Below are positions 3,300 through 39,609 of a DNA stretch of 64,000 nucleotides, piece after piece. Under the pieces are notes generated by a model. It searched no databases. It saw only the letters and a program-made list of their open reading frames with translations, and was not told the origin of the DNA. How positions within the stretch are numbered: position 1 is the first letter of the stretch; each line of letters opens with the position of its first letter. Position numbers and translations under genes: made by a program. Origin of the DNA: Mactra quadrangularis (taxonomy: Eukaryota > Mollusca > Bivalvia > Venerida > Mactridae); NCBI GenBank assembly GCA_025267735.1, contig CM046294.1, positions 38,501,570 to 38,565,569 of the forward strand. The letters run 5' to 3'.

Positions 3300-6200
3300 A
3301 TATGATCGTTTATACATTCATTTTTTATAGGTTGTGGCAGTATCATTATTACTGTTTTCTAAAAATGACCGTCTGGTATGAATACATACACATTTGCATG
3401 CTTTACTCTGTCAAAAAACTAAATAAGGGATAATAGTAAAAAAATTATTTGCATATTCTTCTTATACATCAACAAATATATCACATTACTGCGTCTTTAA
3501 GGAAATGTTTATTAGACAATCACTTAGTTTATTACATGCCTTTATTACTGTGAAGCTGTTTCTGACTATTTTGTCGCGGTCCTACCTATTTTACGACAAA
3601 ATGTTCTATCTACCATAGCTGACACATTGAACATTCACATAAGGGAGGTAAGTACTTAGTATATTAAATGCTTAGTCAATAGTCAAATTGTCAAAACTAA
3701 TGAACATTTTATGACGTCGTTGATTTCTTTAGTAACTGCTGTAGTAAGTTCGAATGACTTGATTGACGTTTCGTTTTCTATTTCCCTTTTGCATGTTTGC
3801 TTCATTTAATTTTTTTACTACATGTGCAAACTATCTAGATATTTTTAATTGTAAAATTGCGTTGTCCTATAATGGAATTTAAACTGTGCAGATATATTTA
3901 TTTATTACGCAATGGTAAATATATATAAGTATATACAACATTTCTGAGTATATATCTTGATTATTAATAGAAGACATAATTTTTGCTTGTTATCTAATCC
4001 AATATTTCAAAAACACATAACCAACTTAACCAATGTAACAAATTTTAACACATCATACACCCAAACAGTGTTTTGTATAGGACAGTTAACACTTAAAAAC
4101 GCAAATTTCTTCATAGATTTTGTTAGAGAACTAGTCCAATGGAAGAACGTTGGCATAGGGAATTCAGTTGCCCAAGTGCCGAACGCCTGTAAGAGCACTG
4201 CTAATTTACTTGAAGAAGAAACTTACCTGAAATTGTGTCAGTCCACTAAGGTGTAAATACAGATACCAGCTATAATCGGATACTTCCATTGCAACTCAAT
4301 AGAGGCTGCAAATAAGCAATGCCAAATACTAGAATCCACATGATAAGCGATAATATCTGTTAAGATAGTGGATGTGCATTAGCCCAAAACATATACTTTT
4401 AACCCTACTATCCATAAGTAATGGCAAAACCCTGATCGGATAGTTCTGTCCTGTAAATGTAGGAGTTGGAATGAAGGTTTCCATAATAAATTGTCTTATA
4501 GCTATCCATGTCTTAATTAGTAGTATGTAATTGCCAATACATGATATCACACTTAGTCATCTATCCAATTTAGCATGCAATTAGAGATCATTAAAAAGTA
4601 TTAAATATCGCCTTTATCATGATTATATTCATCTTTACATTTAATAATATCAACTCAATTCATCCCTAGTGTCGTTTTTGAAATATGCTTTATTTTTTTA
4701 ATCAACAGCATTGTTGTCATAAAAAGTATTTCAAAGACAACTATGTATTTGTTTGACCGTATATTAAAAGAAAACTTAAATACCGATCGAGAAGCACTCA
4801 ATGGAGTTGACTATGATTTTTTAAAACTTATTTAGATTGGTCCCTAATATTTTAGAAAAATGATGACAAATACATCAATCAGGAAGCTATATAGCGTGGT
4901 TAAATTCTACTAAAATGGTATTGCTGGTTTTTGATTATTCATTTTATAAATTGATATTTAGCCGCTGAATATAACTTTGTGAAAGCCGCTTCAACTTAAA
5001 TGGTGAAACTTAGCAAAGTCCTCCATGTATACATCTGCTTTCGTGGAGATGCGTTTGTAGCAGTGTTTCGTATCAGGGGATACGCACCGATTTCGGTCGT
5101 AGAAGGATGAATCCGTTCCAGTGCCTTCAATATTTAAATAGTTAATATCAAATGTCTTGGTATAGGAAAAAGTTGATGATGATGAACCTTTTTTCGGAGG
5201 GTGAGTCAAATTGTAAAATAATTGTCCAGAAAAAAAGAGAAAGGCGAATAAGACACCGTTCTTTACCTATCTAAATGTTGATAAATTGCGCCACATCGAG
5301 TTTAACATAAACAATGTAATATCACTAACTTTGCAAAACAATCTATGAGGTAAATATGCAATGTTTATGTATCATCATTTACAAAATGTAACTTTATATT
5401 TACATTGTAACATCACGTTTATTGAGTTTCTTACTGTTTTACTGTCTTACTGTTACTGTAACATCATGTATATGTATAAGCGAGGTAATACGTACTTTGC
5501 AAATGTTAAAGTGTGTACTGCATTACTCCCCTGATAATGCATTAAATATTGTAGCTCGATCACGTAAAATGTTCTCAACAACTTTGATGAATCAATCTCA
5601 AGTTAACACTTGTCACCTATTCTGCATTAGCATGTCTGTTTCTTGCCGAAGGGAACGACGAGGTGTTTTTTTGGATGTGGATCTAACCATGCGGAGCTGA
5701 CCATCTAAATATTACTAGTTTAACGCCGTTATGTAATGGTAACGGCTGCTGAGCTGAATAGTCATTCCATATTGTATATACATACATTAATAAACATGTA
5801 TATTATTCATAAAACAAGCAAGTTTACTTTGTTATTTATTTCTGAATAAACAGTGACAAAGCAGTGTACAGCAATAGGTCAAACAGTGTCAAGCAAATAA
5901 CAAATTAGCAATTAAGGAGACCCGATTAAAGGAAAATACATAGTAACATAATGTCATAAGATTAATTAATAATTACGTGAAGCAAACTATTGTAACATAT
6001 GGTACTTTACGTGACAATTAAATGATGATTAAGTCACATTGCGAAGGTCATCTTGTCGTCCATTTCACTGTCGCTGGATAACATAATTGACAATTCGCCG
6101 GACCTGCCATTTCTGAATATTCATACTCCGATCACCAAAGAAAGGATGGTCGTATTATTGGAAAAAAATAGTCGCTTGTCTTTGGACTTAGGACTCCTTT

Positions 6201-7340
6201 TCTGCACATATAAGCCGCTTGTCTGTGGGCATGGGTATTGTAGCCTCAGCGTAATGACAGAGCTAACGATAGAATTACCGTATTCTTGCACAAAAACAGT
6301 CGTTTGTCTTTGGACTTAGATTTACTTTGCTATACAGATTAGCTGCTTATCTGAGGTCGTGGGTATACTAACTCCGGCGGAATGACAGTGCTATACCACG
6401 GTTTGAAACTAGTCCTTTGTACATATACACATCAGTGCCTTACTGGATAAAAAGTTAGGTAAAGGTGTTTCCGTAGAACATGATTAATATTCAACTCAAA
6501 GAAGATAAACATTGTTAAATTTACATGTGGCATACTAATAAAACATTACATAACATTTTTGTTGCATCAGTCACAACCATTAGCTTGACCGGATAGAGAT
6601 AATAAAAATTGAACAATGGTCTAGCCTCGTTTTCAGGCTTTTTAAAAAAAAAGTTTTGATTATCCGTTTTTTTATTCTAAATTGTGTCTGTAAGTCTTTG
6701 GCAGGTATAAAAACCCTCCTTTTTGCATAATTATAATGCGATAATCTGTAAATACGATTACGTATAAGTAGACGAAGATCCACTACCGTGACAGACCTGA
6801 ATCATCACAAACATTTACACAATATCAAAACTAAAAACAACTAAATAAAGACATTAAAATCAAATATACAAAGAATAAGCATCACAATGAATTAGTTCTT
6901 TTTTAACAATATCACAAAATATCTTAAGGTGCTATAACATAAAACATAATAAATATTACAACGCATACACTATGTTACTGAATAGTATCATTTAATTTTA
7001 ATTTAAACTTGTCCAGAGTTCAATGTTGATTGAATTATTACCAAGTGTCCAGTTGCATTATTGTGTTGAATAAAACTAATGTATTGTATAATCTTTAACA
7101 CTATATTATGTCACGGAATTTACTGTTTATAGTTTCAATTAATTATACAACATTTTTAATCATATCAAAAGTAGACTTAAGCATTGCAATATATTAAGAT
7201 CATATTTGTTTAAATTGTAATGTCATAAGAAACGATCATCTGAAAAAAGTTAGTTCATACCATGTATACACAATTTAGTTAAGTATTATTTGTTATTTAG
7301 ACAAGCGAAACTTTTATCACTAAATGCTCTAATACAGATG
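3300..7340. other. Non-coding DNA downstream of IgSF-1, duplicated at 32.6-36.8 kb
   Basis: No convincing gene. The short open frames here (for example 3957-4256, 5422-5700, 6053-6319) are not kept open in the duplicate unit and show no recognisable domain. About 5.0-7.3 kb is very similar to 34.4-36.8 kb, including a pair of ~125-bp direct repeats (about 6170-6295 and 6297-6405) sharing TCTTTGGACTTAG and GGAATGACAG-type cores. A stretch ending in AACGCCGTTA (5713-5730) resembles the 3' tails of the SINEs in this window, in reverse orientation. Confidence 0.6.
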
Positions 7341-7357
7341 TTTAAATTTGATACATG

Positions 7358-7363
7358 TTTATT
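7358..7363 (-). terminator. Candidate poly(A) signal of IgSF-1
   Basis: AATAAA on the minus strand about 320 nt past the stop codon. The same hexamer is kept at the matching place in IgSF-2 (36757-36762). No transcript evidence is available, so this is only a positional candidate. Confidence 0.35.
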
Positions 7364-7682
7364 ACAGTTGGTTATCGAGGTAAATATGTAAAAACAAAAC
7401 AAACAAAAAAATAAACACACGTATATCACTTAACAAAACCAGTAAAAAATATTGAAAACCTTAATACAAAGTAAAATACAAATAAAACATAGTGCAAATA
7501 TGAAAAGATGAAATACATGTTTGAAATGTATTAGTAATAAAAAGTTAATAGGTTGCACTCTATAAGCGAATTAAGTATAACACACATACATCTATATTCA
7601 GTAAAAGTTCGTCAAGTTTTTACTCTTCAATTCATACTCATTGTACGCGCTGATTACTACACAATATATTATGTTATGCGTT

Positions 7683-7853
7683 TTATTTCTGTTCCTCTTC
7701 ATCACTTTCAGGAAGTGGTTCAGCTTTCTTTGTAAAATCAACAAGATCATACGGTGTAGGATCATCACCAAGAATAACCATCTTCTCCCCTGGTGGTTTA
7801 TCTTTGAATATAAGATCAGCATAAATCAAGCCATCTTGGTTGACAATCTTCAA
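7683..7853 (-). CDS. IgSF-1 exon 17: ITIM and ITSM-like C-terminus
   Basis: Residues 1106-1161, stop TAA at 7683-7685. The exon contains LIYADL, which fits the ITIM consensus (I/V/L/S)xYxx(I/V/L), and TPYDLV, which fits the ITSM consensus TxYxx(V/I), 24 residues apart, then an acidic ESDEEEQK end. The spacing and order recall vertebrate inhibitory receptors (PD-1, Siglec type). Function is inferred from motifs only. Confidence 0.9.
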   Translation of the reverse strand: MKIVNQDGLIYADLIFKDKPPGEKMVILGDDPTPYDLVDFTKKAEPLPESDEEEQK

Positions 7854-10800
7854 CTGTAAATTAGATTATAAATTTTGATCATAAAATGTGTGATACTATA
7901 AATTAGTTTTACAGCGATAACTCAATCAAAAGCATGTACAGGTTTTTGAATGAATGTTAGTTTCGATATATTACGATATTTAAAACAAAAAACAATGCAA
8001 CCAAATCATTTAAAGTATTTTCTGTATTGAAATAAGATGAGACAAATGGATAAATGGAAGTTAATGGTCAACACAAATTGGGATTTGCAACTTACTCTTG
8101 GATCATTCAAACATGGTATTTATATATCAGATTGTTTACCTTTGGTTGTTTTGCTGGTGGTTTTGGTGGAAGTTGTTTGCCAGCATCTTTCTTATTTGGA
8201 TTATTCTCAAGTTCCACATTCTCGTATACATCACCTATTGTTGTATTATATATGTATAATATAACATAAGATATATACCCTTATATACCTAAATTAGAGT
8301 TGTAAATTTAGACACAGTTATTTGAGAAAAAAATGCAGTGTGTTTACTCCATGTATTAAAAAGATTATTATTTGCATAAGCCAATACAGTAAATTTTTGT
8401 CAAAATATTATGAATGGGTTAAAAATGAACGATTTTGTTAAGTTGCTTGTGTTTTATGCATCGTGTGTGCTTAGATACTATTTAAGACTAAATACGCGAA
8501 CAATCCACCTACGTATCTACAATGGATAAGTCCAGAACTCTTGACTAAGTTATAACTTTAAAATGTACTTAACATTGTACTTTGATGCGATTGTGAAAAA
8601 CATAATTTACGTCTATCATCTTATATTACAGAAAATGATAAAATCTATCATACATACCTTCCTTTTGTTTGCCTTTTTCGATTGTAGATTTACCTTTTCC
8701 TCCCTTACCTAAAACAACCCATCATACAATTATAACATTCAAACAAAATATGTATTCATTGTATTGTCATGTTACATGATACTCAAACTTAAGAATTTAA
8801 ACAAAAGAAATTATCCGGATGAAATTTGGAGAACTCTAACAAAGCAAATTTAAAGTAGGAATATATATTTATGTACAGTTTGTTTACATCTCCATTCAGT
8901 ACAATTACTGCATGAATAGATATGACCTTTCAATTCATACGTATGACACGGAAGATTAATAATATACCTTGTCCCTTTGTCTTGTTCACGACAGAATATA
9001 TGTCTCCATTACCCGCGGCATTGGTTTTATTAGGTTTTACTGGTTTAGAGTAAATATCAGTTGTTGTTGAGGCTGATGTTGAGGCAACTGGTGCAACATT
9101 ACTTGATGATGCATACATTGGATTGTCTACTAAACCTGTAAATATAAATACATAATTTTGGAGAACATAAATTTACGTTTAGGTATGCTGAAAAGAAATA
9201 TCTTCCTCAAAGTACAATTAATCATTTATGTGGTATTTATGAGGCAATACCTTTAGAAAAATGTAGAGCGCAGGATTTGTAATTTACATTTAGATTCTTG
9301 ATGATGTGTTATAATATGAAATGTGAATATTTAAGATAGATTTACATCTGAAGATAGAAAAGCAGTTTGCTGTCAAAACTGAAGTTTTCCAGTCATGAAA
9401 ATGCAATTCTGTTACATTATTGGAAAAATAATGGTGCTTTAGATTTTGTATTTAAGTATTAGTAAAAGTACAAATGCAGAGATTGATGTTTATGAAAAGC
9501 ATTTGTTAACTTTTTACGCATGCTAATTCTTAAAGAAAACTGGCAGTAATTTCCTACCCAAACCATTCATGTTGTTGTTTTATACTTACCATCTTCATCA
9601 TCCGAGTCATCAGAAACAGATCTACAATAGATATGAAATAATATATACAGCGTGTATAGTAAAATATAACAGATATTCAATAGAGAATTAGCAATATCAT
9701 AGGTTGAAAATAAATAAGATAGAAATAGCAATGCAATAATTACAAAATGTGTATAGTTCATATCAATTGTATAAAAGTATAGAATTGTTGTACAAAACCA
9801 GTAGTTTTTGATCGGTATTGTTCCATTATTTGTTTTCTTTTGTTGGGTTTAATGCCGTAGCGACACATGTTATATGTCATATAACGGCGGTCAGTCTACC
9901 TAATCACTCCTCTTGGAAAGGCTAAACCTATCTCTGGATTTAGCTGTTAACCAACTACTAAGCGCTTACTTTCGTCAGTGCCTGACAACTGCCCTACATT
10001 ATTAAAAATCATTAGTAGTATGAAGAATGACCGTAGAAATAATTTCATGACCAAGCTCCACGAAAGTATGCCCCGCCTGGGAATCCAACCCACGACCCCT
10101 CGTTCAGTAGACTTGCGGCTTATTGTTACAGTAGATCATTTAAAAATTTATTATACAATCAAATAAACATTGAAATTATTAATTTTATTTAGAATTACCT
10201 TCGAACGTTTTGCCTATCAGCGCCATTTCCTGCAATTTTAAATTATATGAGATATAACAAAATACTATTACAATACTATTCGTATAATATTACAATCAAT
10301 CAAGGAACAAGGAAAATAAAGAAACTCAAGCACACAATGAAACGACAAGATGTATAACTATGGCTATAGTATTTTTTTTTTAAAATGTCTTTTTAAATAT
10401 AGGGTCAACTTGATGTCAACATTTATTGTATTAACGTTGCGTGTAAAATCAGATCTATTGAGTTTAAACGACTAAATACGTGCTTCATTAACAATGACTT
10501 GTTTAGCGTCTATTGTTCAAAAGTGTAGGTACTGTTTCAATTGTTATCTGATTTAGCATTACCCTTACATAGTAAATATTTCTTTACATGCTGTTTACAA
10601 GGAAGAAGAAATAAAATACATAACAATAAAGTAAAGTCTGCCTGTATATAAACTGTTCTTTTAAAATATCTTGTGAATATTCTTTTATTGCGTATCTATT
10701 GTGATATTACAATAGGTAATTATTGCGATGTTTTGCATAAACATTAACATAAATAAACAGGAAGAGAAATTCAGAGTTTTGATCTTATCTTCATACCACC

Positions 10801-13800
10801 AGATAATAATGCAATCTTGCAATTATAGTATACTATGTTTCAGGTTAAGCTTAGAGACGATGTTTTAAAACAAATTTTGAGATAAACAATTGATAGCAGA
10901 TGACTTAGCAGTAAATGTTGATATTGTATTCGTGCATTTGTCCACGCATATAGAACGTCATGTTTGTTTTATACAACAACTGTTAGAGGAAGAAAAATGA
11001 CGTTTTAAATCACAAAACATAGGTGTGCACATCTAACTATTGCATGTAACTTAATACTAGTAAATATCTAAATGAGACAATGGCTTGACTACAAACAGAC
11101 TTTAAAGCACATAGAAAATTGAATGTAACTATTTATATTGCCGAAACGTCTACATACCTTTAAACAGTGGATACCTTCTAATAATGAATACTATAACTAT
11201 AACAATCACAACACAACCAGTAACACCACCAGCAATACCACCGATCAATGCTCCAGGTATAGGTGTAGGATTATCAATGGCTGGAATAAGAAATTGCAAA
11301 TATGTAATACAATAAATGATGCTAATATACAAACATTAACATACTGCGTTTGAAGCTATAAAAACAATTATAACAGCTACATACCAGTGTTTTACATTAT
11401 TACATTTAAGTTGTATGTTGATTTTTTAGAATGTTGTATTGGCCATTTTTTACTCCATTTTTAGGTCATTTGTTATAAATGTATTTACGGGTATATTTAA
11501 ATGAACATTATTTTTTTAGAAGTAATATGTATAGTTATGCAACATCAATTTGTGTACTTTAATTGTATATGCCAGCCTATTTTCGCGTCGGAATTATCAC
11601 AAACAAAGAAACATGCAAACAAACTAGATTCACAGCCAACTATATAAATATGTTTATTTAATTTTATTAAAGTACTTTTAACATAAATTACCCTTTGTTC
11701 TAGTGATTAAGACATTTGACTCAGTCGAATTTCCTTTAACATTAGAAGCATATATGATCACATGATATTGTGTGTTCTCTAGTAAACCAATCAGTGTGAT
11801 GTTCATTGTGGGTAAACCATTATCAGACACATTGAGATAGTTCCACTCTGTATCTGAACTCTTCCTATACTTGATATAAAACGTTTGAGGAGGTCCATTA
11901 TCAAATCCTGGTTCCCATTCTATATGTATAGATGATGTTGTCGTTAGACCTTCAATGTGTCTTAAACTTTTCGGCGAGTCAGGTTTATCTGTTGATAATA
12001 AAGTAATGTATAAATTAATGAGAATATGTTTTTATATCATGAACAATAATTTAATGTGAAATACTGTTTAGTCGCATCATAAATGTCATAATCGCAAATT
12101 TATTTCCTGGTTAATTTTCTACAGTTACGTGTTAGATGCCCTCATGTTCTTAAAAAGTTTGATTATGATCAATGAGGTAAAAGCATTTACCAATGTTTAA
12201 TCTAAGCTACAAGCAGTAAAACCATTGACAAATGTAAACATAGAAATAATGAAATAATCATAAACGTAAATAAACAAGAACAAATGATGTGCTACATCTT
12301 ACCGTACGGTGACAGGGTATAAACTTGTTCAATTTGACCAAAATCATTTTCTACAACCACCTTATATCTTGTAAAATCGTTCATGCCAACGCTATGAATA
12401 GTAAGGTTACACTGTAGGTTTGTTGACTCAATGAAGTACTTATCACGGTCGTCTAGAATAATCCAATTACCATCAACAAGCTGATACCAAGTAAATGTTG
12501 GTGGTGGATAGGCGATAACATTGAATACAATTACCACTGTACTTTTCTTTTCACTTGTAACATTAACATCTATTTCTTTGCCTACTCTCGGTAAACCTAG
12601 ATAGTAAAATGATTCACATACATTATCAAAGCAAATGAATTAGTTGGCTATTCATTGGATCATCAAATGATGAAGGTGAAGGTCGTCTGAGACCATACAC
12701 ACTTTATTTGCTCAGATGTTTTTGGATATTTATTCAAATTAACAACAGAGTTTTGTGAATATTTTTGGATGTGCATGTTCATGAACACTTCAGCTAAGTG
12801 CATCTTTAATTATATTTTTATTTTTTCAATCATGGGTTTAGTTATTCTTAAAAACAATATACAAAATTTTGATAATTTTTATCATAAAAAATCACACCTT
12901 TTACCAAATTCATGTTGTTCATTGAAATATGACCGTGACCAATTATTGGATTTAGGCTTAAATGTTTACAATAATCCTTGTTTATACAAAGTTGATACCG
13001 CTACACTAAGTGTTATTAATTCATTCATTAGCTCCTTACCGATCACAAAGAAAAAATAGATGTGTTGTGAAAAGTTCTGTTAAAACCCCTCAGGGCGTTA
13101 ATAAAAACAACTTAATATACCCTAAAATATGTAACATTGTAAGTCAGATGAGTGAAAATGTAAATTGCTTGACTTTAAACTGTAGATCTGCTGTAAATAA
13201 AAATTTTGTAATAGGTCAATATTTGAGGGAAGAAAACAATAGATTTTGCCTTATTAACAGAAACTTGGTTTTCAGATGATGAAATATATTTAATCGATAC
13301 CTCTTATTTAAACCAAAATGGGTACAGATTAACAGTATCCAATAGACAAAATAAAGTAGGAGGGGGGATAGCTATAGCTTGTTGCATTGCAATTGATATT
13401 AATAAAATTAAGATCGGGAATACAAGAAGCTTTGAATATGGTATATGGAAATTAATTGCCCTTCATTGTATTGGAATTTACAGACCCCCAGCATTAGCCA
13501 CTGTTTCTCAGTTTGTAGAAGACTTCAATCAATTTATTGAAGATTTAATTCCTAACTACTCTAACCTGTTAAGAAAACTTAAGCTTTAAAGATCACATCA
13601 AAACAAAAAGTAGAACTGTCATGTTCAACTGTTTACGTATCAAAAGTATTAAAAAATATTTGGATAAAGAAGCAACGGAAACACTAGTCCTATCTTTGGT
13701 CATGTCCCACATTGATTACTGAAATCTAATCTTGTATGGAATCTCAAAATGTGATCTTAACAAATTTCAGCGAATTCAAAACATGTGTGCCAAACTAGTA

Positions 13801-16800
13801 TTAAGGCTAAACAATCAGACAGTTCAAAGGATGCTTTGTACTCACTTCACTGGTTACCAGTCAAAGCAAGAATCAACTTTAAACTATGTACTTTCATGTA
13901 CAACTGTTTTTCTGGAACTGCACCTGCATACCTGACTGAAATTCTTCAAAAGCCTGAACAAAGCAGACCTGGTCTTAGATCTGCAAAATCCAAAGACCTG
14001 ATATTTTTTATACCAATAAATAAGAAAAAAACATTCAGTGACAGAAGCTTTAGTACAGTTGGTCCCATGCTATGGAATAAGCTACCAGATGATATAAAAT
14101 TATCACCTACTTTGGATGTATTCAAAAAACGATTGAAAACTCATTATTTCTCTACTTTCTATGATCTATTCGAAAACTGGCATGGCTTGTTAATGCCTCA
14201 CCTTACAATTACGGTAAACATACTAAGTGATTGAGTGAGTGCAATATGACATGGGAATGAGGATTGCCTCGCTCTCAGTCATCTTATACCTTGTGTCATT
14301 TGACTGCAATGACAACCTTAATAAATTGTCCCTTTAAAGGTGATGTTTCGATACCTTTGGGGATGTATTAAGGGCCCTTTAAAGGTGATGTTTCGACACC
14401 TTTGGGGAAATGTCTGGTTAACAGTGGCGTTTTGTTACACTGTTCAGGACATGTCCGGTTAACAGTAGCATCATGTTATACTGTTCAGGACAACTGTTTT
14501 CAATATCAAATAGATAGAAATAAATAAGAAATTAGTGATACAAATGTAAAATTAAGTGGAATCATGATCTATGAAGGATGTAGGTCCAAAAATATGAAAT
14601 ATAAAGGCTTTTTTATTTTGTTTTGTGTTATTGTATATACATTATGTTTTTATGGTGGAGGGTTTTTACTTACATGTATTTATTTTTTATAACATTTTTG
14701 TACAACGCCATTGAATATTATGTAATATAGATATAGGCGTTTAACCAAATGAAAAAGTTTAAAGTTTAAACAAAAATGTCAAATATCTATCAATGGATAA
14801 TTGTGAAGTTCACTTTATCATAAAATCTGAATTTAATACAACACGTTTAATCATAATTATCGCAGAGCACCATGTATTATACATGTAGTTTATGCTAGAC
14901 TTACATGCCATGCGCAACTAATTCAATTTAACATTTAAGTACCTATCGTACCTGACCTGATCTATGTCGCTCATCTATTCAGCAAACTGAACATTAAGGA
15001 TTAAAGACAAAATTGAATGGACTGGAAAATATTAGTAAGCTTCAATGAATATATAATAAATCCGGAATAAAGTTACTCACAATTGACGAAAACCTGCACT
15101 GTGTTTTGATCTCCATTTTCATCATTATACATATTTTGTGCAGAACAGAAGTAAGTTCCTGCATCTAAACATCTTGCCTCAACAATGTTGTACTCTATAC
15201 TGTTTGATGTCACAGTATTCAACGTTTTTCTTTCATAGCTCAATGTCATCACAGCTGTAGGATTACCATCAGCATTACATTTAAATCTAGCTGGGTCACT
15301 TTCGTTAACAGTTACTGTCTGAGTCGTAAATCCGGTAATAGTAAATGATGTAATACTTGCTGCATCTGATAGATAAATTAATACAGATGTCATTTAGATT
15401 GTACATGTAAAACGTATTTATCGCTTTGTTACCTATGAAAGGACCATAACAAATCAATACGCGTTAAGTAAAATTTTAATGTGCATTTACTTTACTGTCA
15501 GTTTTAATTATGAACATGCTTATTGAAATAAGGTCGTATGATCATAAATACAAACCTAGTTGTGATGAAATGTTAACTAAAGTTATGTATTAAACGATAT
15601 ACTTACATTGCACATCAAGATGGAAACTTTGATTATGTTGACCAATGTACGATGTACTATCTTCACTTTGTATCATGATATTAGATGCTGAACAAGTATA
15701 TATCCCACTATCACTGTTTTTAAGAGACTCAATGTTTAATGTTGCAGTAGTCCATTCTCTATTGTCACTATCTTGTGTCCATTTAATTGACGTGGTCTCA
15801 GGCATTCCTATTGAGAAGTTACACACCACGTTTAGCCGTGACCCAATTTTTTTTGAAATATCAGTTAAAGGCAATACTTCAGGTGGATCTGCAATGTCAA
15901 AATTATTCAAACCAATTTTATCAACAAAGCAGTGTTCATCAATTGAGGTTATGTATTTAACTAGTTATTTAATTACATAATCACAGCTTACATGTTCCTT
16001 CTTTAGACTATTTCGACACCAATTATAACCTTTCCTAACCGTCCTTCTCACATCAATGTCTAATTACGAGAATATGTTGCCCTTTACATTACACTTACGA
16101 AACATAAGTTAATCAAAAACATAACTATGCTATCTTATATCAACAATATCAAAACTAGAGGAATGTTAATAAAATAACTTACATAATACAACAACATTCA
16201 CGACATTACTGTTAATACCAGCAACCGGTCCACCGCCAGATGGATGCATTGTGTTATGTACACTACAATTATATTCTCCAGCGCCCAACTTATCTATATT
16301 AATTAGTTGAAGTGATTGTTTATATTCAGCACCAGCTATTGTAGGTCCTGTCCATGTATATCCATCTGGTGATGGATTACTTTCTGATGTACACTCTATA
16401 CTCCTGGTATTACCTTCTATAAATGAAATATTTCCATCAACACTTTTACCATTTACTCTAAACTCTGGTTTTGATGGTGGATCTGTAATTGTATTGTTAC
16501 AATCAATTTGCTATCAATCATGTTCAATTTATGATACGTTCCTTAAAGGGGTTTTTGTTATACCTTTATAAATTATCATAATCATTATATATTTCATAGA
16601 CAAAACTCTCTTAGAATATCAATAATTGTCGTGCGTATTTTATATGAATTGTTAAATGATAAATGTCTTTTATTGATAAACACATTAATATAACCGTTTT
16701 TAATTGGGAAATTACAACTCATTACAAATAACCGATTTTAAAAGTCAAATTTCAAAAATATCGAGTTTTAAAGAGTCTCGAAAAGTAAAATCGTTCTATT

Positions 16801-19800
16801 AAATACTATTTTGTGATAATTAATTAAAACCTGCCTCGTACTGTTTTCCATTATCAATTGAAAACTTACATAAAACAACCAAGGAAACCTTTGTTGTTGT
16901 ATCATTAAACCCTGTTTGTTGAGACGTACATGTACAGTTTTCTTCATGACTTCTTGATGGTGTCCATGTTATCGTTGTAGTGACATTTCCATTAGAGTTG
17001 ATAGTTGTTTGATTAGTTGGTGAGATATTAATACAACTCCACGATAATGTTGGTGTAGGATTTCCACCTCTTGTAGTACAAGATAACGTCCCTGGAGTAT
17101 TTTCTATCACACGATATTTATTACCTTGAAGTATGTACAGATTTTCCGCCTTGTCTGAAATACGTAAAATCGATTTCAATCTAAAATCAGTATTATTAGT
17201 TTACAATTATAAGCATGGGAAAAATATTTACAGTAGATGTATTATGGTAAATTCCTATGCAATTTGAAAACGATATTTACTACGAATATTTATACTATTG
17301 AACACTAAATCGCTGATTAATGAAACTCATCAATGCCATGGTCAGTTTATGTTCTATTTAATCCATAAGATATGGAAATGATACATAATTCTTGTAGATG
17401 TGTTTAAAGCTCACAGATCTTACTTTTAAACTTCAAACTAGTTGTAATAAGCATATGATTTACCATCATGATATTTTACTTGCATTATGTTATTCAGCTG
17501 TAATGTAATAGCTATCCAAACATCCTACTTCGTACTTACATAGGACATTTAGTAAAATCTTCTTGTTGGTCCGCACCGGACTCTTATTGACATTGTTCTT
17601 TGCAGTACAGTATATCTTTGTATCATTGTCTTGTCGCGTGGGAACAAAACGTAGTATACTTGTTGTTATACTTAAATCATTGTAATCAGTCATTGAAGCA
17701 ACGTTGTTTGTTATCTGGGTTATATCGTTATTGCTCCTATTTGGATGTCTATACCAATATACAGAGGCAGCAGGTCTTGCTGTTGATGCTGTACATGTTA
17801 ACTTTACCACTGTGTTTTCTTTGACCTCAACCGAATACTTAGATGATGTAATTGTCACTGATGTTACTGGAGCTGAAATACGTCACAAGTATCAATATCT
17901 CTTTGTGTCAATCGAATCATATAACTGCACAACTTAGATAATATTTTCAAAATTAAAATCAATAACATGTCTTAACTGGAAGTTTATTAATTAAAATTAC
18001 TGTTAACAGTCTAAAGTGGATGTTTGTGGTTTCCTGTATATGTATTAAATCGAAAGAAATCGGCATTATACATGGACACCCTTTCGTGGATTCACGATGA
18101 ACACTAACTCTGCTCCGATAGAGCTTTGTGTTATTTCTATAGCGGAGCACATTTAACTATGATTATGAATACAAGCATTAACTTTGCTCCGGCATAGTTC
18201 TATAATTTGCTCCGGCGGAGTCCTATTACTTTTGCCCGGCAGAGCCTACTTTAATCCATGCTTCGGCGGAGTTCAGGGTACTATATAAAATTCGGTTTTT
18301 TTTGTAACCAGTGGTAAGATTTCTGTAGTTTATTGTGTTGTTAACATATGCGTTGCACTATTCGGAATATTCACAAAGTATGAAATTAAAATTAGATAAA
18401 AGTAAAATTTTCGTTTGTCTTCAATTAAATATCCGATGTGGTGGATTTGTTTGAATTTTACAATTTAAAGAAGTTTGCTACACATCTTAGACATGGACAT
18501 GCCCATCAAACTGCAATACAGTCAATTTTGTCGGCCCTAAATACTACATTGTGAACGTCATTCATATATAACAAATTACGCCAACACATGAAATTTATTA
18601 TGTCCAATTATTTGTCGAATATAAACTTCATTTTATGTTATGTTCTTTCATCCACAGCAGATCTTAATATGAATATTATTTTTATCATTTATCTTCTTGT
18701 GAATTTGTTAATGACGTTGATGTAATGTTTTCTAACATTTCCGTCTATCTAATTATATCGATGCTAAAAATGTACTTATCGTAATCATGTTATAATTATT
18801 ACCTACCTTTTACTTTAATCATCCAGTTTGATCCTGTCTGATTTACTGGTGTACACAAATACATGTCGTTATGTTCACTTCTTTGTACATTTAATATTGT
18901 AACTTGATATACTGTATTGTTACATGTGTATATATATTTACTTGTGTCATTTAGAAATGATGTATTAGGTGAAGTAGTACATCGTCTATTCTGTACACCC
19001 ATAGCTGCTGTTTTGGATCCAAAATTAACATTCCAGTTGACATATGCCACATCATATTCTAATCTACATATAAACGTTACATTATCTCCTTCAGTTACTT
19101 CTTGAACATTAAATATGATAGGTGGTCTACAAAATGTACATGGACTGCCTGTATTTAAATAAAAATTATGTACTTAAAAAGTTAATAATATACGCACACA
19201 GATATTAAAAAAAATGATTTTAGGTATTCATAACTGCCATTTTGAAAAAACAACCAGACACGCTCAAGCTTTCACTTCTTATATTTAGTACGGGGGCCAG
19301 AGGGGTCCACCGTGCAACCCCTCTAGACTTTTTGCCACCTATGCTAAATTGTTCCTTAGGGTCCACTTAAGCAGAATCTGCGTTGTTCTCAAAAATAAAC
19401 TCTTGCGCACAACCTGAAATGTCACAGTTTCCATAGCAAGCCCTTGTTTTTTTTCGAAATTATCCATGTTTGTAAAATCATTCATAACTTAACAAACATT
19501 ACGCTAAAATAATATAATTAGTGTCAATTCAAAGCTGAGACACTGACCTTTAGAAATATGTGTAAAAATATCCGCTAAAATACAGTTTAATTATTGAAAT
19601 TAGCCGAATAAACATAAAGAATGCAGAAAAATATCATTTTTTTCAATTCCATGCATATCTTTTTTTGGAGAAATAATACAATTATGTTTTACAAAATATT
19701 TCAGGAAGGTCTATTCTATCATATTTAAAATTCTTTCTATGACAGTAGTACTATTTATGTATGTGAACATCGTTTCCATACCAACCGCTATTTTCAAGTA

Positions 19801-21810
19801 AGACATACTTTTTGGTGATTAAAATTGATTTTTGTGCTTAGATGTAACGGTAGGATTGCAATATTGATATTGAATGATATCTGAGACTCATGTCAATAAT
19901 ATTATTGTTGTTATCAATAAATTCAGTATCGAAACCTTCATAAATATTGTTAAGAAATCTTAATCAAAGCACCGAAAGCACTGATTTTTTTTCGGTTTGA
20001 CAGTATTAAGGTGGTTCACGTATTTAGAACGTTTGAAGACGATGGTTATTGTGCATTCGTGGTCTGTTGAATAAAGAAATAATATAAAAAAGATTAAACA
20101 TATTTTGTTGTTTTGTTTTTGCTTTTTCTAAAATAGAATTATGCAGGGATATGATTTTGTAATTTAGATTTAACGTTGTACATGTGTATCATTACATTTA
20201 AAAGGTTTTATGCGGCGGCAGACTTATTTAACCAACTTTCCCGGAATTGTTTCTTTATTATTAATCGGTTTAACGTCTTATCCTCACATATTAAATGCAT
20301 AGAACTGTCAAAACGTATATTTTTATTTACTTAATGACAGTTAAAGTAAAATAAAAGAATGACCAACTTATATAACAATGTGTCGTAAAACCAAAACCAA
20401 TTTTTACGTAATATTTGTTCATTAGTTTACATCGACCAACTTGTTAAGCAAGTTTTCATATGTATAAAGAGTGGAATATATAAAGAAAAACACACGTAAA
20501 CAGTTATTTTTTTGAATTTATTAGTCTTTGATGTAATAATACATGTAAGTTTTTGCTGCTGAATATCACACATGCATGTAGAAGACTAATACATTCTTTA
20601 TGTGAATATATTAATTTACATTTTTTTAAATTTTACATTAGCATTCCACAATATTATATTAAGAAATTAGAAAGTGTGGGTAATAACTTGTGTTTGAAAT
20701 AGTTTTAACATCAATATTTATAATTCACTTATGTTTGTGTGGCTTTAAATAAAAACTATTTTATAATACACATTAATTCCGTTTACGTATCACAAGTATA
20801 TGACATGTGATTTTCCTTTGATTTCCAAACAAATCGAGTAGATATAAAAAATATAAAGGGTAACAGCCGGGTTAAGTAGAATTGTGACTATGTGACACAC
20901 AACCAATTCTAATACTCTGATAGCACTTTATTTCATCATATGTTATATTAATTTGATATAGCCATAGCCATCTGTGATTATATGAAATCCATCCTAATCA
21001 ACAATTCACTTTGCCAAAGCCATTATCACTCTGGGAACTTGACAAAGTTATGCCTCGCATAAAACACGACTATGACGATATGTAGGGACAAGTGTATAGA
21101 TTCCCCTTACAATAACTAGAATATAGACTATATACAAAATTCATCTCATTAAATGATAAAGTCTTTTCAAGTAGATAACTTATTTACCTGAGATTTTTCT
21201 AATGATCCATGTAGATCCTGGTCCATCGAGTTGTACTGTGTCTCTACAAGCTATTATGGAGTTTATTAAGTGCCCATCATTATTTAGATGTACGGTTACT
21301 TGAAACATCGTACCATTGCACGTAAAAGAAAATCTTCTTTCAGTAAGAAAAGAATCAGATGGTGACGCTGTACATTGTCCATTCTGATAACTCATCAATG
21401 ATGTTCCTGTAGGTCCCGCTAAATATGTCCATCTTGTTAAATTAGTTGATGACTTATAAAGACAATCTAAATTAAAAGATCCAGTTCCGTTCATCTCAAC
21501 AACATTTAAAACCATTGTTGACGACTGACATAATTGCCAACATACTGAAATAAATAAAACGTGTTAAGAGACAACAGATAAAAGCTTGATTTATTAGATA
21601 CAAATTAATTATTTGGGATCATTAAGAAGGTACAATCAAATTGAAATTGTAACCAAGTTTTCATAATAACAATGAAATGTGACAAATGAAGCATTATGTT
21701 TTATCTTTGTTAGTGTTTAACTTAAACCAAAAATAACGAAATATAACATTTACCTATATAAATCACTTACCATGTATAAGTACTATGTCTGACCAAAAAG
21801 CAATATGCAT
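7683..21810 (-). CDS. IgSF-1: transmembrane Ig/FN3 receptor with ITIM and ITSM-like tail
   Basis: A 17-exon gene encoding 1161 aa, rebuilt from splice sites. Exons, 5' to 3': 21771-21810, 21188-21544, 18807-19148, 17540-17872, 16870-17154, 16183-16482, 15607-15888, 15081-15365, 12303-12596, 11692-11988, 11158-11280, 10199-10229, 9590-9621, 8968-9135, 8658-8708, 8140-8234, 7683-7853. All junctions are GT-AG, and one Ig domain per phase-1 exon is typical of animal IgSF genes. Order: signal peptide (about 1-25), eight Ig-like domains (14-839), FN3 (840-938), transmembrane helix (about 948-972), tail (980-1161). Tail tyrosines: Y1008 (NPMY), Y1029, Y1047, Y1077 (YENV), Y1116 (LIYADL, ITIM), Y1140 (TPYDLV, ITSM-like). 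Expected role, by family: cell-surface recognition with phosphotyrosine signalling through SH2 proteins. The 8 Ig + FN3 layout also resembles nephrin, so adhesion is the main alternative. No stop or frameshift was found. Confidence 0.88.
8140..10229 (-). CDS. IgSF-1 exons 12-16: proximal cytoplasmic tail
   Basis: Exons 10199-10229, 9590-9621, 8968-9135, 8658-8708 and 8140-8234 (residues 980-1105). They encode a short linker, an acidic SDDSDDED stretch, an NPMY motif (PTB-type NPxY), a Ser/Thr-rich region with DIYSKPV and DIYSVV, a Lys/Gly-rich 17-residue exon, then DVYENV (YxN, Grb2-SH2 type) and the proline-rich PPKPPAKQPK (SH3-ligand type). A SINE lies in the intron between exons 12 and 13 in both genes. 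Confidence 0.85.
9830..10135 (-). mobile_element. tRNA-derived SINE in IgSF-1 tail intron
   Basis: Runs on the minus strand. The head near 10120 carries a pol III B-box-like GGTTGGATTCCC. The body is about 300 nt, and the 3' tail reads GTCGCTACGGCATTAAACCCAAC. A copy sits at the same intron position in IgSF-2 (39222-39525), so the insertion predates the duplication or was carried by gene conversion. Confidence 0.75.
11158..11280 (-). CDS. IgSF-1 exon 11: transmembrane helix
   Basis: Residues 939-979. A single helix with a glycine zipper (GALIGGIAGG) then a Val/Ile run, a positive stop-transfer (RR) and YPLF, a YxxPhi-type sorting motif just inside the membrane. It differs from IgSF-2 at three residues by my reading. 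Confidence 0.9.
11692..11988 (-). CDS. IgSF-1 exon 10: fibronectin type III domain
   Basis: Residues 840-938. FN3 hallmarks: Pro-rich A strand (KPDSPKSL), SIHIEWEPGFDNG, FYIKYRKS, and the LLENTQYHVIIYASN G-strand block ending in STES. A membrane-proximal single FN3 is also the plan of nephrin-type proteins. Confidence 0.9.
12303..12596 (-). CDS. IgSF-1 exon 9: Ig-like domain D8 lacking the core disulfide
   Basis: Residues 742-839. The fold signature is kept (FTWYQ, LTIHSVGMNDFTRYKVVVEN), but both disulfide cysteines are replaced (VIVFN and YKVVV). The same loss occurs in IgSF-2 exon 11, so it is ancestral. Confidence 0.85.
12640..14830 (+). mobile_element. Internally deleted non-LTR retrotransposon in IgSF-1 intron 8
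   Basis: Antisense to the host gene. Reading frames, split by frameshifts, give an ORF start region (12830-13070), an APE-type endonuclease part (about 13140-13585; LTETW, GGGIAI, YRPP), then directly the post-RT C-terminal region of CR1/L2-like elements (13585-14235; HWLPVKARI, LWNKLPDDI). The reverse-transcriptase palm is missing. The 3' region has imperfect tandem repeats (14325-14400 and 14410-14490). The matching IgSF-2 intron (45497-45861) is only 365 bp and lacks it. Confidence 0.82.
15081..15365 (-). CDS. IgSF-1 exon 8: Ig domain D7
   Basis: Residues 647-741. Cysteines at FKCNADGNP and TYFCSAQN. The core Trp is replaced (MTLSY), and an extra Cys sits in EARCLDAG. It matches IgSF-2 45862-46146. 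Donor GTGAGT. The following intron is 2.5 kb because of a retrotransposon fragment. Confidence 0.86.
15607..15888 (-). CDS. IgSF-1 exon 7: Ig domain D6
   Basis: Residues 553-646. Canonical core NVVCNF, IKWTQ and GIYTCSASN, followed by a well kept YIGQHNQSFHLDVQC end. It is orthologous to IgSF-2 exon 9 (46805-47086), same length. Confidence 0.88.
16183..16482 (-). CDS. IgSF-1 exon 6: Ig domain D5
   Basis: Residues 453-552. The frame is fully open but contains no early ATG. It starts with the PPSKPEF linker; core ECTSESNP, YTWTG, GEYNCSVHN. It matches IgSF-2 48722-49030. Downstream, IgSF-2 has two more Ig exons that are missing here. Confidence 0.88.
16870..17154 (-). CDS. IgSF-1 exon 5: Ig domain D4
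   Basis: Residues 358-452. The core is GTLSCTTRGGNP...LSWSC and NCTCTSQQ, with extra cysteines beside the core pair (SWSC, CTC). Several N-x-T/S glycosylation sites. It matches IgSF-2 49792-50073. Confidence 0.88.
17540..17872 (-). CDS. IgSF-1 exon 4: Ig domain D3
   Basis: Residues 247-357. Canonical Ig core: VKLTC, VYWY and TKIYCTAKN supply the disulfide cysteines and the core Trp. Linker LNVLC at the exon end. It matches IgSF-2 50425-50757, which has the same length. Confidence 0.88.
18100..18275. repeat. Short GC-rich direct repeats in IgSF-1 intron 3
   Basis: About six imperfect copies of TTTGCTCCGGCGGAG, spaced 20-35 bp and including one inverted copy, stand out in a very AT-rich intron. 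No counterpart was noticed in IgSF-2. Confidence 0.5.
18807..19148 (-). CDS. IgSF-1 exon 3: Ig-like domain D2
   Basis: Residues 133-246. The pattern is VTFICR...VNW...GVQNRRCTT...YIYTCNNTVYQVTIL...MYLCT...GSNWMIKVKG, with the same four-cysteine plan as D1. Extra cysteines precede the domain (PCTFC). Phase-1 borders; donor GTAGGT. Confidence 0.82.
19160..21120. other. Expanded IgSF-1 intron 2
   Basis: Non-coding. The matching IgSF-2 intron (51799-52188) is 390 bp, so about 1.6 kb was gained here or lost there. A short GC-richer stretch at 19285-19340 looks like part of a dispersed repeat, but I cannot name it. No ORF of interest. Confidence 0.5.
21188..21544 (-). CDS. IgSF-1 exon 2: signal peptide end and Ig-like domain D1
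   Basis: Residues 14-132. An unusual Ig-like domain with four cysteines and the pattern LTRW...SYQNGQCT...DSFL...FTCN...IACRD...GSTWII. It is clearly related to D2, so the two arose by internal duplication. It is among the most diverged domains between the two genes. Confidence 0.8.
21771..21810 (-). CDS. IgSF-1 exon 1: start codon and signal peptide
   Basis: ATG at 21810, chosen because it directly precedes a hydrophobic leader, ends at a GTAAGT donor in phase 1 and matches IgSF-2 exon 1 by position. The leader runs into exon 2 (VCWQLCQ-SS) with cleavage predicted around residues 22-25. An acceptor-like CCTTTCAG just upstream (about 21830-21837) suggests a separate 5'UTR exon. Confidence 0.75.
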
Positions 21811-35500: not shown

Positions 35501-36740
35501 CCAATTCACTGTCGCTGGATAACATAATTGACAATTTGCCGGACCTGCCATTTCTGAATATTCGTACTCTGTTCACCAATGAAAGGATTGTCGTATTATT
35601 GGAAAAAATAGTCGCTTGTCTTTGGACTTAAGACTACTGTTCTGCACATATAAACCGCTTGTCTGAGGGCGTGGGTATTGTAGCCTCGGCGTAATGATAG
35701 AACTAACGAAAGGATTATCGTATTCTTGCACAAAAACAGTCGTTTGTCGTTGGACTTAGATTTACTTTGCTATACAGATTAGCTGCTTATCCGAGGTCGT
35801 GGGTGTAGTAACCTCGGCGGAATGACAGTGCTATACCACGGTTTGAAACAAGTCCTTTGTACATATACACATCAGTGCCTTACTTGATAAAAAGTTAGGT
35901 TGAGGAGTTTCCGTAGAACATGATTAATATTCAACTCAAAGAAGACAAACATTGTTAAATTTTCATGTGGCATAATAATAAAACATTATATAACATTTTT
36001 GTTGCATCAGTCACAACCATTAGCGTGACCGGATAGAGCGTCGTTTTCAGGCTTTTTAAAATACATTTTTTTATCCGATTTTTACTCTAAATTGTGTCTG
36101 TTAGTTTTTAAGCGTGTATAAAAACCCTCCTTTTTGCATAATTATAATGCAATAATCTGTAAACACGATTACATATAAGTAGACGGTGATCCAATACCGT
36201 GACAGACCTGGATAATCACAAATATTTACACAATATCAACACTAAAAACAACTAAATGAAGACATTAAAATCAAATATACAAAGAATAAGCATTACAATG
36301 AATTAGTTATTTTATAACAATATGACAACATATTTTAAGGTGCTATAACATAAAACATAATAAATATTACAACATATACACTATGTTACTGAAAAGTATC
36401 ATTTAATTTTAATTTAAACTTGTCCAGAGTTCAATGTTGATTGAATTATTACCAAGTGTCCAGTTGAATAAAACTAATGCATTGTATAATCTTTAACACT
36501 ATATTATGTCACTGAATTTACTGTTTTATAGTTTCAATTCATTATACAACATTTTTAATCATATCAAAAGTAGACTTAAGCATTGCAATATATTAAGATC
36601 ATATTTGTTTAAATTGTAATGTCATAAGAAACGATCTTCTGAAAAAAGTTAGTTCATACCATGTATACACAATTTAGTTACGTATTATTTGTTATTCAGA
36701 CAAGCGAAACTTTTATCACTAAATGCTCTAATGCAGATGT
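32580..36740. other. Non-coding DNA downstream of IgSF-2
   Basis: Duplicate of 3.5-7.3 kb. It contains an extra internal direct duplication: 33150-33310 and 34060-34210 both align to 4610-4770 (shared block TGATATCAGCTCAA...TTTTATTTTTTTAA). A small inverted repeat lies at 33690-33745 (CCTCTGCAGAGCGAC / GTCGCTCTACAGAGG). No gene. Confidence 0.6.
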
Positions 36741-37078: not shown

Positions 37079-39609
37079 TTATTTCTGTTCCTCTTCGTCA
37101 CTTTCAGGAAGTGGATCAGCTTTCTTTGTAAAATCAACAAGATCATACGGTGTAGGATCATCACCAAGAATAACCATCTTCTCCCCTGGTGGTTTATCTT
37201 TGAATACAAGATCAGCATAAATCAAGCCATCTTGGTTGACAATCTTCAACTGTAAATTAGATTATAAATCTTGATCATAAAATGTGTGTTACTATAAATT
37301 AGTTTTACAGAGATAAATCAATCAAAAAGCATGTTCAAATTTGTATAAATATTAGTTTCGATATATTACGATATGTAAAACGAAAAACAATGCCAAGCAA
37401 ATCATTTAAAGTATTTTCTGTATTGAAATAAGATGAGACAAAAGGATAAATGGAAGTTAATGGTCAACACAAATTGGGATTTGCAACTTACTCTTGGATC
37501 ATTCAAACATGGTATGTATATATCAGATTGTTTACCTTTGGTTGTTCCGCTGGTGGTTTTGGTGGAAGTTGTTTGCCAGCATCTTTCTTATTTGGGTTAT
37601 TCTCAAGTTCCACATTCTCGTATACATCACCTATTGAAGTATTATATATGTATAATATAACATAAGATATATACCCTTATGTATCTAAATTAGAATTGTA
37701 AATTTAGACACAGTTATTTATGAAAAAAAAGAAAATATGCAGTGTGTTTACTCCATGCATTAAAAAGATTATATAAGTATTTTTTTGTCAAGATATAATG
37801 AATGAGTTAAAACAGAACGATTTTGGAAAGTTGCTTGTGTTTTATGCATCGTGTTGGCTTAGATACTATTTAAGACTAAAGACTAAGTATCTACAATTGA
37901 CAAGTCCAGATCTCTTGACTAAGTTATAACATGTAAAAGTACTTAACATTGTACTTTGATGCGATTGTGAAAAAACATAATTTACGTCTATCATCTTATA
38001 TTACAGAAAATGATAAAATCTATCATACATACCTTCCTTTTGTTTGCCTTTTTCGTTTGTAGATTTACCTTTTCCTCCCTTACCTAAAACAATCCATCAT
38101 ACAATTTTTACATTCAAACAAAATATTTATTCATTGTATTGTCATGCTACATGATACTCAAACTTAAGAATTTAAACAATAGAAATTATCAAGATGAAAC
38201 TTGAAGAACTCTAACAAAGCAAATGTAAAGTAGGACAATTTATATTTCTGTACAGTTTGTTTACATCTCCATTCAGTACAATTACTGCATGAATGAATAT
38301 GACCTTTCAATTCATACGTATGACACGGAAGATTAATAAAATACCTTGTCCCTTTGTCTTGTTCACGACAGAATATATGTCTCCATTACCCGCGGCATTG
38401 GTTTTGTTAGGTTTTACTGGTTTAGAGTAAATATCAGTTGGTGTTGAGGCTGATGTTGAGGCAACTGGTGCAACATTACTTGATGATGCATACATTGGAT
38501 TGTCTACTAAACCTGTAAATATCAATACACAATTTTGGAGTACATAAATTTACATTAAGGTATGCTGAAAAGTAATATCTTCCTCAAAGTACAATTAATC
38601 ATTTATGCGGTATTTATGAGGCAATACCTTTAGAAAAATGTAGAGCACAGGATTTGTAATTTACAGTTAGATTCCCGACGATGTGTTATAATATGAGATG
38701 TGGATATTTAAGATAAATTTACATCTGAAGATAGAAAAGCAGTTTGCTGTCAAAACTGAAGTTTTCCAGCCATGAAAATGCAATTCTATTACATGATTGA
38801 AAAAATAATGGTTCTTTAGATTTTGTATTTAAGTATTAGTAAAAATACAAATGTAGAGATTGATGTTAATGAAAAGCATTTGTTAAGTTTTACGCATGCT
38901 AATTCTCAAAGAAAACTAGCAGTAATTTCCAACCCAAACCATTCATGTTGTTGTTTTATACTTACCATCTTCATCATCCGAGTCCTCAGAAACAGATCTA
39001 CAATATATATGAAATAATATATACAGCGTGTATAATAAAATATAACAGATATTCAAGAGAGAATTAACAATATTATAAGTTAAAAATATATTAGATAGAA
39101 ATAGCAATACAATAATTACAAAATAATACGTATGTGTATAGTTCATCCATTGTATGAAAGTATAGAATTGTTGTACAAAACCAGTAGTTTTTGATCGGTA
39201 TTGTTACAGTATTTGTTTTCTTTTGTTGGGTTAAACGCCGTAGCGACACATATTATAGTTCATATAACGGCGGTCAGTCAACCTAATCACTCCTCTTGGA
39301 AAGGCTAAACCTATCTCTGGATTTAGCTGTTAACCAACTACTAAGCACTTACCTTCGTCAGTGCCTGACAACTGCCCTACATTATTAAAAATCATTAGTA
39401 GCCGGGAGAATGACCGTAGAAATAAGTTCATGACCAAGCTCAACGAAAGTATGCCCCGCCCGGGAATCCAACCCACGACACCTCGATCAGTAGTCTTGCG
39501 ACTTATTGTTACAGTAGATCATTCATAAATTTATTGTACAATCAAATAGACATTGAAAATAATAATACTTAGAAATACCTTCGAACGTTTTGCCTATCAG
39601 CGCCATTTT
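37079..39609 (-). CDS. IgSF-2 exons 14-19: cytoplasmic tail
   Basis: Exons 39579-39609, 38966-38997, 38345-38512, 38033-38083, 37536-37630 and 37079-37249. The tail has NPMY, DIYSKPV, DIYSVV, DVYENV, PPKPPAEQPK, LIYADL (ITIM) and TPYDLV (ITSM-like), with stop TAA at 37079-37081. All tyrosine motifs are identical to those of IgSF-1. Confidence 0.88.

Follow-up and report, generated by a model that had tools for sequence, protein, structure and literature searches.

PD-1 and the CD33-type Siglecs carry near the C-terminus an immunoreceptor tyrosine-based inhibitory motif (ITIM), followed about 25 residues further on by a switch motif (ITSM), and the ectodomain of PD-1 is a single IgV domain. 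As defined in PMC8631942, an ITIM reads S/I/V/L-x-Y-x-x-I/V/L and an ITSM T-x-Y-x-x-V/I. The two PD-1 tyrosines, Y223 and Y248, lie 25 residues apart, and the jawed-vertebrate consensus given in PMC12151841 places F at position +5 in the ITIM, and either F or Y at that position in the ITSM. Here, we analyse a 64,000-nucleotide stretch of the genome of the bivalve Mactra quadrangularis (GCA_025267735.1, contig CM046294.1, positions 38,501,570 to 38,565,569; hereafter the window), in which an earlier note, made from the sequence alone, had proposed a receptor with immunoglobulin (Ig) domains and an ITIM and ITSM-like tail.

ITIM-bearing receptors of the immunoglobulin superfamily (IgSF) have been reported from oyster, Hydractinia and Botryllus, so the suggestion in the earlier note that a receptor of this kind was undescribed was too strong. 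In the oyster Crassostrea gigas, CgIgIT and CgIgIT2 are, like the products predicted here, bivalve transmembrane multi-Ig receptors, and are reported as inhibitory receptors of haemocytes; CgIgIT2 differs, by description, in having five Ig domains and an activation motif (ITAM) (PMC11999971). The allorecognition receptors Alr of Hydractinia and FcoR of Botryllus are likewise clustered invertebrate IgSF receptors with ITIM-type tails, although FcoR is described as a protein of 520-610 aa with V, sushi and two C2 domains (PMC12065747). Allorecognition systems of this type are marked by many alleles at high polymorphism and by a fusion or rejection phenotype; the window represents a single haplotype. 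An ITIM-bearing leucine-rich repeat receptor is described from amphioxus (PMC8211107). We found no paper joining ITIM, ITSM and "mollusc" (in that spelling only) in open-licence full text, and none of the titles and abstracts listed for Mya, hemicentin and nephrin described this family. ITIM-bearing IgSF receptors being already known, the novelty lies in a multi-Ig family of nephrin-like build whose ITIM/ITSM tail is both conserved and homogenised between paralogues.

We find that this tail is part of a multigene family of bivalve receptors with multiple Ig domains and, in most cases, a single fibronectin type III (FN3) domain and a single transmembrane segment. The family is tandemly duplicated in the window and is represented by several members in both Mactra and Mya.

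Gene structure and tail motifs

We built gene 1 from the raw sequence on the minus strand as 17 coding exons, with AG/GT at all internal borders and an uninterrupted reading frame whose single stop lies in the last exon (Table 1). The predicted product comprises, in order, a signal peptide, Ig1 to Ig8, an FN3 domain, a transmembrane segment and a tail of 190 residues after it, and this spliced model agrees with the 1161-aa protein with eight Ig domains and FN3 that the earlier note had put forward. Pfam models matched above cut-off include Ig_3, I-set, C2-set_2, V-set and fn3, among others. Gene 2, on the same strand (52919 to 37079), is likewise an uninterrupted GT-AG model, with 19 exons, 1376 aa and 10 Ig domains; its layout is that of gene 1, and its tail is 97% identical in amino acids to the gene 1 tail. 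Both products have an N-terminal hydrophobic signal (by inspection) and one transmembrane segment, as expected of type I single-pass proteins.

The Ig1 domains of the two genes share 49% amino acid identity, and Ig2 of gene 1 looks V-like by inspection. The Ig1 and Ig2 exons of gene 1 encode six cysteines each, two before the Ig fold and four inside it, and the two cysteines beyond the usual Ig pair suggest an additional disulphide in the outermost domains. The intron between Ig7 and Ig8 of gene 1 contains, at about 13010-14234 on the plus strand, what appears by eye to be the remnant of a reverse-transcriptase element of long interspersed nuclear element type, with no Pfam match in two open frames tested.

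The interval 7683-9135 corresponds exactly to tail exons t3 to t6, the last four of the 17, with t1 and t2 upstream of it. All seven tail elements listed by the earlier note were located there, in the order that it gave (Table 1). LIYADL conforms to the ITIM definition and TPYDLV to that of the ITSM, and both sites are encoded in the single exon t6; DIYSKPV, DIYSVV and DVYENV fail the ITIM consensus because of an acidic residue at -2.

We estimated chance expectation from 20,000 shuffles of the gene 1 tail. An ITIM arose in 22% of these and an ITSM in 3.6%; the two occurred together in 0.6%, and in the order ITIM then ITSM, 15-35 residues apart, in 0.075%. When position +5 of both motifs had also to be F, Y, L, I, M or W, the ordered pair arose in none of the 20,000 shuffles of gene 1, none for the database protein P0008 and one for P0024. 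A single ITIM match is near chance level, and the ordered ITIM-ITSM pair is not. The ITSM expression also matches TQYHVI within the extracellular FN3 domain, indicating that the expression alone is weak. The tail is predicted to be disordered, with pLDDT of 20-27 in most blocks, which fits a docking tail.

Conservation of the tail across bivalves

Three homology searches identified 25 database proteins, from Mactra antiquata, Mya arenaria, Ruditapes philippinarum and Pecten maximus, bearing out the bivalve-like origin proposed from the sequence. The closest were those of M. antiquata (best 67% over the query region; "Mactra" below denotes these proteins), followed by Mya, while tail-directed searches added further Mya proteins and one protein each from Ruditapes and Pecten. 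Members are present both in Mactra, within Heteroconchia, and in Pecten, within Pteriomorphia, so the family probably predates the split between these groups. Six of the seven Mactra matches share one contig size of 35.4 Mb and all 16 Mya entries one of 80.8 Mb, suggesting that the family is clustered; because the Mya entries include several isoforms and partial models, entry numbers do not equal gene counts. Of the 25 matches, 17 carry an annotation for the fn3 model (PF00041).

Tail features were counted in 20 complete tails, being those of the 25 database and two window proteins minus seven: P0009, whose tail is the same as that of P0008, and P0006, P0012, P0015, P0016, P0017 and P0025, whose tails are incomplete. 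These 20 tails are about 173-229 residues long. The tyrosines of the NxxY, DxYxxV, ITIM and ITSM sites are invariant in all of them, and the ITIM consensus is found in 20 and the ITSM consensus in 19, the exception being P0007 (VPYDAV), with 23-26 residues from the ITIM to the ITSM tyrosine. The ITIM follows the pattern L-x-Y-[A/E/S/L]-[D/E]-[L/I/V]-x-[F/L], with L at -2 and L/I/V at +3 throughout, A at +1 in 16 tails and F at +5 in 19. For the second site the pattern is [T/V]-x-Y-x-x-V-D-[F/L], with V at +3 and D at +4 throughout, T at -2 in 19 tails, A at +1 in 13, and F and L at +5 in ten each. NPxY occurs in 17 tails and YxNx in 18; nephrin-type Nck sites (YDx[V/P/D]) occur in only six, both window tails among them, and neither an ITAM (paired YxxL/I) nor YxxM was found in any of the 20.

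Thus, the tyrosines and flanking residues of LIYADL and TPYDLV, on which the earlier note had staked its reading, are conserved in relatives, and we regard this conservation as strong evidence that the tail motifs are real. A search whose query also spanned Ig8, FN3 and the transmembrane segment gave nine matches, eight with a complete tail, of which all eight had the ITIM and seven the ITSM; two of the eight (P0008 and P0009) are isoforms with identical tails. The most conserved tail 8-mer among nine representatives is TKKAEPLP, immediately after the ITSM-type site, which matches no motif that we recognised.

Homogenisation of the tail between the paralogues

The matching tail of gene 2, the +5 residues and the homogenisation described here go beyond the earlier note. 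Between genes 1 and 2, synonymous divergence (dS) is 0.034 in the pooled tail exons, versus 0.36-0.84 in the Ig exons, where amino acid identity is 49-70%. A block running from the transmembrane exon of gene 1 to past its 3' end is 90.7% identical to its counterpart in gene 2, over an alignment of 6351 columns. The transmembrane and tail exons are identical at 655 of 671 positions versus 2675 of 2871 (93.2%) in the introns, indicating greater conservation of the exons (Fisher p 3e-6), and in the ectodomain half the two genes align outside the exons only in patches. The two window tails differ at seven residues, which spare the tyrosines and the -2 and +3 positions of the motifs; the seven include the ITIM +4 residue and one residue of the proline segment.

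We inferred trees from nine rows, two from the window and seven from Mactra. Genes 1 and 2 are sisters in the ectodomain tree (Ig2 to Ig8; support 100/99) and are also joined in the tail tree, where a constraint grouping gene 2 with Mactra P0001 was rejected (p-AU 4.4e-07). The path length between genes 1 and 2 is 0.045 in the tail versus 0.55 in the ectodomain, compared with 0.44-0.45 versus 0.72-0.77 from these genes to P0001. Our case for homogenisation is therefore based on the dS contrast, intron identity and path lengths, and not on conflicting topology. As the trees join both genes in ectodomain and tail alike, the simplest account would be a duplication after which the 3' half was either homogenised or replaced through unequal exchange.

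Within Mactra, P0003, P0004 and P0006 share 94-100% of tail exons t1 to t4, with Ig domains at 43-79%; other Mactra pairs do not have this pattern. A 128-bp tandem repeat is found at 6151-6393 and 35581-35825, at matching places downstream of both genes and inside the duplicated block.

Relationship to known receptors

We compared the predicted receptors with the vertebrate systems named by the earlier note. Its parallel with PD-1 and Siglecs stands as regards the order of ITIM and ITSM and their spacing (24 residues between tyrosines in the window tail), and extends to fitting -2 and +3 residues and the F at ITIM +5, whereas kinship with PD-1 or the CD33-type Siglecs is unsupported, and SAP-type switch signalling and an immune role stay conjectural. 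Orthology with PD-1 is ruled out by architecture, as the window genes encode eight to ten Ig domains and FN3 instead of one IgV, and no match so named was present among the 25 proteins. The ectodomain matches MAG (a Siglec; E 7e-09), CEA and CEACAMs, and the best 60 of 178 matches include these and FcRL5, alongside titin and contactins; none of them is the best match, and MAG ranks mid-list among structures. On sequence grounds some Siglec or CEACAM kinship is conceivable; the matches are generic ones among many IgSF chains. The Siglecs are described as having a sialic-acid-binding V-set domain with a key Arg (PMC5877582). We take convergence to be the best explanation of the similarity between the tails.

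In overall build, the predicted receptors resemble the nephrin/SYG-2/Rst (IRM) proteins, with multiple Ig domains, a single FN3 domain and a transmembrane segment. Four ectodomain Ig domains align collinearly with D1-D4 of SYG-2, although other Ig chains fit as well. The family differs from IRM proteins in that the Nck-type site is unconserved, and it is set apart by its ITIM/ITSM pair, its copy number and the homogenisation of its tail. No oyster protein was present among the 25 matches of the three homology searches.

Proposed signalling and alternative explanations

On balance, we favour, with moderate confidence, the reading that these genes belong to a multigene family of bivalve IgSF receptors that act by recruiting an SHP-type tandem-SH2 phosphatase and so damp or gate activation. 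The ectodomain would bind a ligand on another cell or surface, after which a Src-family kinase would phosphorylate the tail. Three kinds of partner could then dock: an SHP-type (corkscrew-like) tandem-SH2 phosphatase on the ITIM/ITSM pair, Grb2 on the YxNx site, and an adaptor of phosphotyrosine-binding (PTB) or endocytic type on the NPxY site. The net result would most probably be damped or gated activation of haemocytes or epithelia, with differing ectodomain readers feeding one output module. To our knowledge, SAP-type adaptors are vertebrate proteins, and the "ITSM" would therefore be best read as a docking site for a C-terminal SH2 domain (C-SH2), not as a switch.

SHP docking is the leading mechanism because the bivalve tails fit the rules described for PD-1 and SHP at several positions beyond the short consensus. 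According to PMC12151841, both SH2 domains of SHP-2 are helped by F at pY+5, and T at -2 belongs to the residues that the C-SH2 domain alone prefers; for an ITIM, PMC8631942 reports that SHP1 is favoured by a +1 residue that is nonpolar and of medium size, such as Ala. An ordered ITIM/ITSM pair and an ITIM +5 F common to PD-1, kept from clams to scallop, would be a precise convergence on tandem-SH2 phosphatase docking. Oyster CgCLec lectin receptors on haemocytes are reported to signal through a hemITAM, Syk and ERK, with no ITIM or ITSM in the account given in PMC13027682, and a pathway that such a receptor could oppose thus exists in bivalves.

Several observations weigh against this reading. 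Two of the three homology searches picked their matches by tail similarity, and the six predicted members with incomplete tails lack the ITIM/ITSM end; these ITIM-less members, from Mactra and Mya, may reflect truncation of the gene models, or may have variant tails of the kind seen in paired receptors. The ITSM of P0007 has V for T, half of the ITSMs have L instead of F or Y at +5, and P0013 and P0022 lack a recognisable transmembrane segment. We saw no positive selection, with dN/dS below 1 in ten tested exons and in the pooled tail (0.23-0.69). A duplication of the ectodomain older than the split from Mactra is rejected, because the ectodomain tree makes genes 1 and 2 sisters.

We considered three alternatives, whose probabilities overlap. 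It is possible, if doubtful, that a nephrin/SYG-2/Neph-type adhesion family has expanded in bivalves, and that its tail, without any immune or inhibitory function, organises actin and junctions by way of adaptors such as Nck and Grb2. Kinship with the IRM family is itself compatible with the phosphatase-recruiting reading, and this alternative concerns function. Its Nck-type sites are nonetheless kept in only six tails, while T at -2 and V at +3 of the second site are almost or wholly invariant; structural scores of other Ig chains are equally high, and the copy number and tail homogenisation would be unusual for a structural junction protein. We entertain with similar reserve an activating or dual-output receptor, whose tail could drive phagocytosis or ERK signalling rather than inhibition. 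SHP2-type phosphatases and Grb2 also promote Ras/ERK signalling, and a YxNx site stands beside the ITIM and ITSM in most tails. In the review PMC11999971, oyster CgIgIT2 is said to carry an ITAM and to activate ERK, though the paper cited there is titled inhibitory. Against an activating role, none of the 20 tails has an ITAM and the transmembrane stretch of gene 1 holds no charged residue. Finally, the motifs might be chance matches in a tail under low constraint, or the gene might be unexpressed, which we judge very improbable: a lone ITIM does arise in 22% of shuffled tails, but chance motifs are ruled out by the rarity of the ordered pair and its conservation in four named species and that of the window, to which intact gene models and exon constraint can be added.

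Diverging ectodomains on one homogenised tail make the family a candidate for how bivalves might check self or microbes. A more speculative extension of the phosphatase-recruiting reading, which we think unlikely, is that a chromosomal cluster of such ectodomains on a PD-1-like ITIM/ITSM tail, in which ITIM-less members might act as decoys or as activating partners, forms an independently evolved haemocyte checkpoint or self-recognition system, possibly relevant to transmissible cancer in Mya. Transmissible cancers are reported in bivalves, including Mya (PMC8955499).

Coordinates and other features of the window

Table 1. Positions in the window of the exons and tail motifs of genes 1 and 2 and of the homogenised block.
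Feature	Position	Strand	Basis
Gene 1 exon 1, start codon and signal peptide	21771..21810	-	GT donor, in frame with next exon, phase 0 to 1
Gene 1 signal peptide end and Ig1 (V-like by eye; least conserved domain)	21188..21544	-	AG/GT, phase 1-1
Gene 1 Ig2	18807..19148	-	AG/GT, phase 1-1
Gene 1 Ig3 (C2-set_2, CD80-like)	17540..17872	-	gene model; Pfam PF08205
Gene 1 Ig4	16870..17154	-	gene model
Gene 1 Ig5	16183..16482	-	gene model
Gene 1 Ig6	15607..15888	-	gene model; Pfam Ig_3
Gene 1 Ig7	15081..15365	-	gene model
Gene 1 Ig8	12303..12596	-	gene model; Pfam I-set
Gene 1 FN3	11692..11988	-	gene model; Pfam PF00041
Gene 1 transmembrane exon	11158..11280	-	21-residue hydrophobic stretch without charged residue
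Gene 1 tail exon t1	10199..10229	-	gene model
Gene 1 tail exon t2, acidic SDDSDDED	9590..9621	-	gene model
Gene 1 tail exon t3: NPMY, DIYSKPV, DIYSVV	8968..9135	-	gene model
Gene 1 tail exon t4, basic linker, none of the listed motifs	8658..8708	-	gene model
Gene 1 tail exon t5: DVYENV and PPKPPAKQPK	8140..8234	-	gene model
Gene 1 last exon t6: ITIM LIYADLIF, ITSM-type TPYDLVDF, TKKAEPLP, stop	7683..7853	-	gene model
NPMY	9124-9113	-	exon t3
DIYSKPV	9058-9038	-	exon t3
DIYSVV	9004-8987	-	exon t3
DVYENV (YxNx, Grb2-type)	8232-8215	-	exon t5
PPKPPAKQPK	8169-8140	-	exon t5
LIYADLIF (ITIM LIYADL)	7829-7806	-	exon t6
TPYDLVDF (ITSM-type TPYDLV)	7757-7734	-	exon t6
TKKAEPLP block	7733-7710	-	exon t6
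Homogenised block, gene 1 transmembrane exon to past 3' end	5001..11289	-	matches 40658-34435 of gene 2
Gene 2 exon 1, start codon and signal peptide	52868..52919	-	gene model
Gene 2 Ig1	52189..52542	-	AG/GT
Gene 2 Ig2	51451..51798	-	gene model
Gene 2 Ig3	50425..50757	-	gene model
Gene 2 Ig4	49792..50073	-	gene model
Gene 2 Ig5	48722..49030	-	gene model
Gene 2 extra Ig, IgX; not in gene 1, found in Mactra P0001	48134..48430	-	gene model, comparison
Gene 2 extra Ig, IgY; not in gene 1, found in Mactra P0001	47424..47750	-	gene model, comparison
Gene 2 Ig6	46805..47086	-	gene model
Gene 2 Ig7	45862..46146	-	gene model
Gene 2 Ig8	45203..45496	-	gene model
Gene 2 FN3	44514..44810	-	gene model
Gene 2 transmembrane exon	40527..40649	-	gene model
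Gene 2 tail, gene 1 motifs and stop	37079..39609	-	exons 39609-39579, 38997-38966, 38512-38345, 38083-38033, 37630-37536, 37249-37079

Elsewhere in the window, TRIM-like gene fragments lie on the plus strand at 339-674 and 1590-2639, with a B-box zinc finger followed by a coiled-coil-like and, by eye, an NHL-like stretch; only B-box Pfam models were above cut-off, and 2046-2636 gave no Pfam match. A compound tandem array with units of 17, 19, 38, 53, 94 and 106 bp occupies 60558-61096 and contains three long overlapping minus-strand open frames; one open frame tested had no Pfam match, and the array looks like a repeat and not a gene. Two far-apart arrays, at 28272-28577 and 60282-60559, have nearly the same 60-bp unit.

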